From assembly GCA_030625815.1 (NCBI GenBank), contig DAOUQF010000033.1, forward strand, positions 1-40,823: a DNA stretch of 40,823 nucleotides, written 5' to 3'. Origin of the DNA: Eubacteriales bacterium (GTDB lineage: Bacteria > Bacillota > Clostridia > Tissierellales > GPF-1). Below the pieces are notes generated by a model. It saw only the letters and a list, made by a program, of their open reading frames with translations. It was not told the origin of the DNA and ran no database searches. Of the stretch, positions 5,786 through 40,793 are shown piece after piece. Numbering within the stretch: position 1 is the stretch's first letter; every line of letters begins with the position of its first letter. A program made the translations under genes and the position numbers.

Positions 5786-7093
5786 TTACGCCTCCAGATC
5801 CAGATCGTTTCGAATCAAATCCTCAAAGGACTCTCGCTTTGTTACCAATCGATCCTGCCCGTCTTTGACCATGACCACCGCCGCTCGGCGAACCGAGTTA
5901 TAATTGGAAGACATGGAATAGGTATACGCCCCGGTTGACGCAATGGCCAATACATCGCCGACTTGTGCAGCCTGCAGCATCGTGGATTGAATCAAGACAT
6001 CCCCCGACTCACAGCACTTCCCTGCCACACAAACCTCTTCAGTTGGTGCGTCATTCATACGATTGGCAATAACGCCTTCATACACGGCCTGATAGAGGGC
6101 TGGTCTCGGGTTGTCCGTCATACCACCGTCTACCAAAACATACCGCTTGCCGCTGTAGGTCGTCTTTCTCGCTTCCACCGTGTACAGGGTCGTGCCGGCA
6201 TTGCAGACAATGCTTCGGCCCGGTTCTATCATCACCCGGTTGATGCCAAGCTTTCTATCCGCAATCTCTTCCTCTAAGGTAGCGATCATGGCATCGAGCA
6301 TGTTTCCAAGGGCAATGGGATCATCCCCCTCTGTATAATAGACGCCGAAGCCACCGCCAAGATTCAGGGTAGTCAGTCGAACCCCCGTTTCCGACTCCAC
6401 TTTCGCCACAAATTCCGTCATCACACGAACCGCTTGCAGGAAGGAAGAAGATTCAAAGATCTGTGATCCGATATGGCAGTGAATGCCCTCCACCTGAAGA
6501 TAAGGTGCTGCATCCATTTCAGTGAACCAGTTGAAAATGTTCGGATCAAAGATGCTCTCTCCAAACTTCGAAGAATAGGTGGAGGTTTGAATATACTCAT
6601 GGGTATGGGCTTCGATCCCCGGATTCACACGGACAAGGATTCTCGTCATCTGCTTACGCGCACGAGTGAGTCTGTCGAGTTTTTCAAATTCATCATGATT
6701 GTCCACCACGATTACACCAACACCAAGATCCAAGGCCATGGTTAATTCAGAAATGCTTTTTGAATTGCCATGCATAACAATTCGCTCCATGGGAAATCCT
6801 GCACGCTTCGCGATATACAAATCCCCATCCGACAAGGTGTCCATGGACAGTCCCTTCTCGACAATCAATCGACAAAATGCCAGATTCAAAAATGCTTTTG
6901 ATGCGTACACAATATTGGTTACGAATTTTTCCGATTGAAAACGATGTAAAAAGGTTTCGATGTTTTCTTCGATCAATCCCTGATCCATAACATAAAGCGG
7001 TGTGCCATGCTTCTTCGCAAGCGCGATGGTATCTACCCCGCCGATGCTCAAGTGATTTTCCTCATTTGCTGCCATTGTTCCAAATAGTCTCAT
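5786..7093 (-). CDS. lysA: Diaminopimelate decarboxylase
   Basis: 435 aa fold III PLP enzyme that decarboxylates meso-DAP to lysine. Seen: the PLP lysine K66 in YASKAFLN, HIGSQI, the glycine-rich NLGGGFG phosphate site, EPGRSIV and the C-terminal CCESGD motif whose Cys contributes to the partner active site. Start choice: the ATG at 7093 has AAAGG 9 nt upstream, whereas the ATG at 7102 has that site immediately against it, so 7093 is preferred. It is the first gene of the operon, behind the riboswitch; having the last pathway enzyme first is notable. Confidence 0.95.
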   Translation of the reverse strand: MRLFGTMAANEENHLSIGGVDTIALAKKHGTPLYVMDQGLIEENIETFLHRFQSEKFVTNIVYASKAFLNLAFCRLIVEKGLSMDTLSDGDLYIAKRAGFPMERIVMHGNSKSISELTMALDLGVGVIVVDNHDEFEKLDRLTRARKQMTRILVRVNPGIEAHTHEYIQTSTYSSKFGESIFDPNIFNWFTEMDAAPYLQVEGIHCHIGSQIFESSSFLQAVRVMTEFVAKVESETGVRLTTLNLGGGFGVYYTEGDDPIALGNMLDAMIATLEEEIADRKLGINRVMIEPGRSIVCNAGTTLYTVEARKTTYSGKRYVLVDGGMTDNPRPALYQAVYEGVIANRMNDAPTEEVCVAGKCCESGDVLIQSTMLQAAQVGDVLAIASTGAYTYSMSSNYNSVRRAAVVMVKDGQDRLVTKRESFEDLIRNDLDLEA

Positions 7094-7115
7094 AGTCTTC
7101 ATCCTTTCCGGGTAT

Positions 7116-7149: not shown

Positions 7150-7182
7150 GCATAAAATGCTGATTCATTCTTTCACCCCATG

Positions 7183-7330
7183 TATAAACGCGCTTCTTGT
7201 ACGAATCTGGGCAGACTCGTACAGACAGTCTTATGCCTCTTAAAACATAAGCCCAAGGAATTTCTTCCCTTCGGCAACTCACCCTTTCCGGACCCCTCCG
7301 TACTCTTGATCATTGCATCCTCAATTTATA
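7183..7330 (-). promoter_or_regulatory. Lysine riboswitch (L box) upstream of lysA operon
   Basis: Read on the minus strand, the segment carries conserved L-box blocks in order: GAGGATGC, then CAAGAGTA, then GGAAAGGGTGAG followed by TTGCCGAAGGG, then CTTGGGCTTATG and GCATAAGACTGTC. A P5-like hairpin follows (UGUACGAGUC with GAUUCGUACA). Short complementary ends (UAUAAA with UUUAUA) can close P1. A terminator follows it and lysA comes next. The boundaries are set from the P1 arms and may be off by some nucleotides. High lysine is expected to terminate transcription before the whole operon. Confidence 0.92.
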
Positions 7331-7362
7331 CACCCAACAATATTCATTTGTTAATTGTCCCT

Positions 7363-40196: not shown

Positions 40197-40272
40197 TGGT
40201 GCCCAGAGGCGGAATCGAACCACCGACACGGGGATTTTCAGTCCCCTGCTCTACCGACTGAGCTATCTGGGC
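40197..40272 (-). tRNA. tRNA-Phe (GAA)
   Basis: 76 nt with CCA encoded. Acceptor GCCCAGA pairs with TCTGGGC; anticodon stem GGGGA/TCCCC with loop CTGAAAA gives anticodon GAA. Cloverleaf complete. Last gene of the cluster. Confidence 0.97.
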
Positions 40273-40328
40273 AAATATACCGCCTCATCAACCAAACTGA
40301 TCCTTTGGTCTTCGCGATATGATAAAAA

Positions 40329-40405
<77 letters not shown>

Positions 40406-40410
40406 ATTTT

Positions 40411-40487
40411 TGGTCGGGGTGGCAGGATTTGAACCCGCGGCCCTCTGGTCCCAAACCAGATGCGCTACCAAACTGCGCTACACCCCG
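40411..40487 (-). tRNA. tRNA-Pro (TGG), copy 1
   Basis: 77 nt with CCA encoded. Acceptor CGGGGTG pairs with CACCCCG; anticodon stem TCTGG/CCAGA with loop TTTGGGA gives TGG. One base differs from copy 2 at 40717 (GGCCGCGGG here, GGTCGCGGG there). Confidence 0.97.
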
Positions 40488-40527: not shown

Positions 40528-40603
40528 TGGCAGGGGTGGCAGGACTTGAACCTGTGACCCCCTGCTTGTAAGGCAGGTGCTCTCCCAGCTGAGCTATGCG
40601 CCC
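40528..40603 (-). tRNA. tRNA-Val (TAC) with unpaired, chimeric-looking 3' end
   Basis: 76 nt, CCA encoded. D arm and anticodon arm are normal (CCTGC/GCAGG stem, loop CTTACAA, anticodon TAC). The acceptor 5' strand GGGCGCA should face TGCGCCC, but the 3' strand reads CACCCCT then G then CCA: only three Watson-Crick pairs and one G-U of seven. The first T-stem pair is A-C. The 3' tail CCTGCCACCCC is identical to that of the flanking tRNA-Pro genes. Likely a recombinant or non-functional gene, or an assembly artefact. Confidence 0.8.
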
Positions 40604-40716
40604 ATTTTGGATGCAGGACGTTGGATGTTAGGGGTTGGATTTTTGTCATTCTTTTAAGTCTTTTTAAGCCTTTTAGACATGACCCTAGTCCAACTTCCAA
40701 CTTCTTGCTTCTAAAT
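40604..40716. repeat. Inter-tRNA spacer with TTGGA-type inverted repeats
   Basis: On the minus strand GTTGGAAGTTGGACTAGGG near the 5' end faces CCCCTAACATCCAAC near the 3' end. Between them lie two near-copies of AAAGRCTTAAAA. Unlike the short spacers between the other tRNAs. Confidence 0.55.

Positions 40717-40793
<77 letters not shown>

Follow-up and report, generated by a model that had tools for sequence, protein, structure and literature searches.

A tRNA gene with a valine front and a tryptophan tail at a contig end, probably an assembly or contamination artefact or a dead recombined gene

Near one end of the window, the whole 40,823-nt stretch of DNA analysed here, lies a tRNA gene whose 3′ end does not match its own acceptor stem (Table 1). 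This raises the question of how such a gene arose and whether it is a real feature of the genome. Read directly from the letters, four of the seven acceptor pairs form (G1-U72, G2-C71, G3-C70 and G5-C68, one of them a G-U pair), leaving C4-C69, C6-A67 and A7-C66 unpaired, and the T stem has four pairs and an A49-C65 mismatch. Both defects had been described in the original prediction and were borne out, as were its intact D and anticodon arms. The CCA end is also intact, and the Rfam alignment shows the anticodon arm paired, with TAC as the anticodon. Scoring against Rfam RF00005, suggested in the same prediction, gave 46.7 bits, above the gathering score of the family, whereas the four remaining tRNA genes in the window score 68.9-75.9 bits. 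Among the 45 matches listed genome-wide, only a tRNA-SeC scored lower, and ARAGORN made no call at 40528-40603. The seven-pair acceptor stem required of a functional bacterial tRNA-Val is thus reduced to four pairs, and the discriminator is G73 instead of the Val-type A73 that the genome's two further Val(TAC) genes carry.

Table 1. Coordinates of the features of the window discussed in the text
Feature	Position	Strand	Evidence and remarks
Lysine riboswitch	7180..7332	-	Rfam RF00168, 61.5 bits; upstream of minus-strand ORF 5786-7102
tRNA-Ile and tRNA-Phe	40197..40405	-	ARAGORN; collinear with G001 and G002
Inner tRNA-Pro(TGG), C at position 48	40411..40487	-	ARAGORN; same C48 in tRNA-Pro(TGG) seen in G001 and G002
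Stub of 336 bases, from inner tRNA-Pro to contig end	40488..40823	-	Non-syntenic with G001 and G002; no full-length match in the genomes searched
Val(TAC)/Trp(CCA) hybrid tRNA gene	40528..40603	-	Two parents account for 76/76 bases; Rfam 46.7 bits
13-base identity of both parents, containing the switch	40540..40552	-	Longest run common to the two parent genes in Maledivibacter halophilus
Outer tRNA-Pro(TGG), T at position 48	40717..40793	-	ARAGORN; exact 77-base match in Maledivibacter halophilus

To judge how unusual this pairing is, we compared the gene with 233 distinct CCA-ended tRNA sequences from 125 mutually overlapping sources, 22 of 255 distinct sequences having been excluded as short or devoid of a CCA end. 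In this control, which is biased since ARAGORN itself selects paired stems, seven acceptor pairs were present in 222 sequences and six in the remaining 11; none had fewer than six. All five T-stem pairs were formed in 227/233 sequences and two to four in 6/233; a T-stem mismatch by itself is therefore not rare in kind.

The origin of both parts of the gene could be read from other tRNA genes. Bases 1-64 are those of a tRNA-Val(TAC), whereas the 25 bases at the 3′ end are those of a tRNA-Trp(CCA), the two matches overlapping by 13 identical bases. When 76 distinct 76-nt tRNA genes were tried by exact match, the only ordered pairs explaining all 76 bases were Val then Trp, in four pairs with a 13-base common stretch and two with a 7-base one. 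With the two Maledivibacter halophilus genes for Val and Trp as parents, the gene is explained base by base, the switch falling within GGTTCAAGTCCTG. Both parents occur together in this one genome, which also has the tRNA-Pro variant that adjoins the hybrid in the window. The exact Val 64-mer matched five stretches of the genome_contigs collection, all with normal ends, and had no match in viral_contigs. The odd tRNA is a valine tRNA front fused to a tryptophan tRNA tail.

Comparison with two same-genus genomes (G001 and G002) located the point at which the contig departs from its relatives. Both are collinear with the contig between tRNA-Phe and the inner tRNA-Pro, where synteny ends. In both relatives tRNA-Pro is preceded by Ser(TGA) and the spacer between these two genes; in the window this place is taken by the stub, in which lie two spacers, the hybrid and a further tRNA-Pro one base different from the inner one. 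The original prediction had proposed examining close relatives: neither carries the hybrid, as judged by exact pattern, and both have different sequence before tRNA-Pro. It had also described tRNA-Pro genes of identical type on each side of the hybrid; the two genes are indeed present, but they differ at position 48. Synteny thus breaks at a repeated sequence 336 bases from a contig end, as in an assembly misjoin, and the inner tRNA-Pro is the likely place of the join. The outer tRNA-Pro variant was also found exactly in at least three genomes of the same order (G012, G013 and G040) and therefore points to no single donor. The spacers of M. halophilus differ from those of the stub. Spacer 40604-40716 starts, after the outer tRNA-Pro, like the spacer following tRNA-Trp in M. 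halophilus.

We then looked for the stub and the hybrid elsewhere. Apart from its own copy, no full-length match to the 336-base stub and no donor were found among the genomes searched; in the first search, 59 of 60 genomes (own included) matched, via tRNA genes among the matches listed. Spacer 40604-40716 matched 3/100 genomes at E <= 0.001 (its own and two with 22-base matches) and, slightly extended on both sides, 5/391 genomes of the class (its own and four with matches of 28-36 bases). A 39-base piece of this spacer had no match in viral_contigs. A second copy of the stub in the own genome was rejected, matches there being at the level of tRNA genes only. Phage and plasmid origins were likewise rejected: blastn matches occurred in 1355 phage and 414 plasmid records, none with one place covering 80% of the query, and two plasmid matches that were inspected corresponded to ordinary tRNA genes called by ARAGORN, with blastn alignments that did not contain the hybrid. 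A pattern combining Val(TAC) with a Trp-type tail, verified to detect the window itself, found no matching stretch in genome_contigs or viral_contigs, collections from which records very close to the window are possibly omitted. Within the order, the hybrid pattern matched a single genome out of 249, namely the own one.

The tRNA complement of the genome provided further evidence. A search for other tRNA-Val(TAC) genes, also put forward in the original prediction, recovered two normal ones elsewhere in the genome, so the hybrid is unnecessary for decoding. All Val(TAC) genes seen in the genus (two in the own genome, two in G001 and one in G002) are unlike the Val half of the hybrid, and the Trp genes seen (one each in G001 and G002) are unlike its Trp half. 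Allowing up to three mismatches, the Ser(TGA)-Pro spacer and the genus-type Trp, Ser(TGA) and Arg(TCT) bodies were present in both same-genus genomes and absent from the own genome; part of the tRNA clusters of the genus is therefore missing from the assembly, whose completeness is 98.47. The 44 ARAGORN calls made in the stretches taken from the own genome, a list based on 150 scored of 192 candidates, likewise lacked Trp, Ser(TGA) and Arg(TCT); Ala and Ser(GCT) did not appear among these calls either and may also be absent.

Taken together, these results suggest that the odd tRNA is probably not a real feature, and we interpret it as an artefact of assembly or contamination or as a dead recombined gene. 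The account we favour, and hold to be reasonably probable, is that the stub comes from a foreign clostridium with Maledivibacter-like tRNA genes and was joined through tRNA-Pro, the hybrid being a second join at the 13-base identity. The assembly would have crossed from the own genome into the foreign one via the nearly identical tRNA-Pro gene and, inside the stub, would have passed from Val to Trp at the 13 shared bases, both joins being presumably the work of the assembly rather than of the cell. We favour this account because both parents occur exactly in one other genome, that of M. halophilus; because the two halves of the hybrid are unlike the Val(TAC) and Trp genes seen in the genus; because synteny with the two relatives ends at the inner tRNA-Pro; because part of the genus tRNA clusters is missing from the assembly; and because the hybrid pattern was found in no other genome searched. 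Two contigs of the own genome (C40 and C46) begin identically and diverge after 141 bases, where a tRNA-Asn gene ends. This exact overlap would fit an assembler with k = 141, which we take to mean MEGAHIT; from this one overlap we infer both the assembler and the metagenome origin of the assembly. Local assembly in MEGAHIT uses shorter words. Some points count against the favoured account. A 13-base join is below the smallest k-mer in common use; no donor was found and the spacers of M. halophilus are unlike those of the stub; and exact copies of the variant tRNA-Pro exist in genomes of the same order.

A less probable, though still serious, alternative is a real pseudogene, produced by deletion through recombination at the 13 bases within a cluster of the type Val ... 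Trp-Pro, in a piece of DNA that was acquired or is a contaminant. The 13-base identity is no less suited to recombination than to an assembly join. Trp immediately precedes Pro in M. halophilus and in 10 of 12 loci with a Trp gene, most of which were fetched via Pro and are biased accordingly, and the hybrid, too, stands directly before Pro. However, the hybrid was found nowhere else in genome_contigs, viral_contigs or the 249 genomes of the order, its single occurrence being in a stub at a contig end. Furthermore, the gene before it is Pro, whereas the gene before Val, in 11 loci where one was called, was Glu (8), Trp (2) or Met (1).

It is very unlikely that the gene encodes a functional tRNA of an unusual kind, which is charged and used even though its acceptor stem is open. 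The intact D arm, anticodon arm and CCA end and the Rfam score above gathering would agree with function, but the genome holds two normal Val(TAC) genes, no relative with the hybrid was found in genome_contigs or the 249 order genomes, and the minimum-energy fold of the RNA alone is not a cloverleaf (z -0.95, the folding covering the hybrid only). We give equally little credence to a real, transcribed hybrid which, combining a valine anticodon with a tryptophan acceptor end, could act as a decoy or be mischarged by the wrong synthetase. Of the candidate explanations in the original prediction, an assembly join is thus the one we prefer by inference, and gene conversion from the neighbouring tRNA-Pro genes, whose tails it had matched to that of the hybrid, is the least credible of all: the hybrid and Pro have CCTGCCACCCC in common, but the hybrid ends in TGCCA and Pro in GACCA, and the longest exact suffix match reaches 25 bases with Trp but at best 3 with Pro, an exact Trp tail that contradicts such an origin.

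These results serve mainly as a warning that sequence of another organism may be present in a tRNA cluster at the end of a contig, and a two-parent test is advisable for tRNA genes close to such an end whose acceptor stem is broken, before they are given a biological reading. If the hybrid were real, it would represent a well-marked recombination at 13 bases common to two tRNA genes.

No work on a bacterial Val/Trp hybrid tRNA emerged from a literature search, as far as titles and the first lines of abstracts tell, and the closest comparisons are with ordinary tRNA genes. The tRNA-Val(TAC) genes of M. halophilus and four other genome records are the same as the hybrid over bases 1-64 and, unlike it, end in TTGCGCCCACCA (four genes) or TTGTGCCCACCA (one gene). 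Conversely, the tRNA-Trp(CCA) genes of M. halophilus and of G004 have the same last 25 bases, whereas the 5′ part of the hybrid is Val. In animal mitochondria, tRNA remolding has been described, in which the anticodon is altered by mutation in a tRNA that keeps its function (PMC4783518). As described there, remolded tRNAs resemble the hybrid in that both relate one tRNA gene to two acceptor families; they differ in that remolding is an anticodon mutation yielding a functional tRNA, whereas the hybrid is two genes fused end to end.
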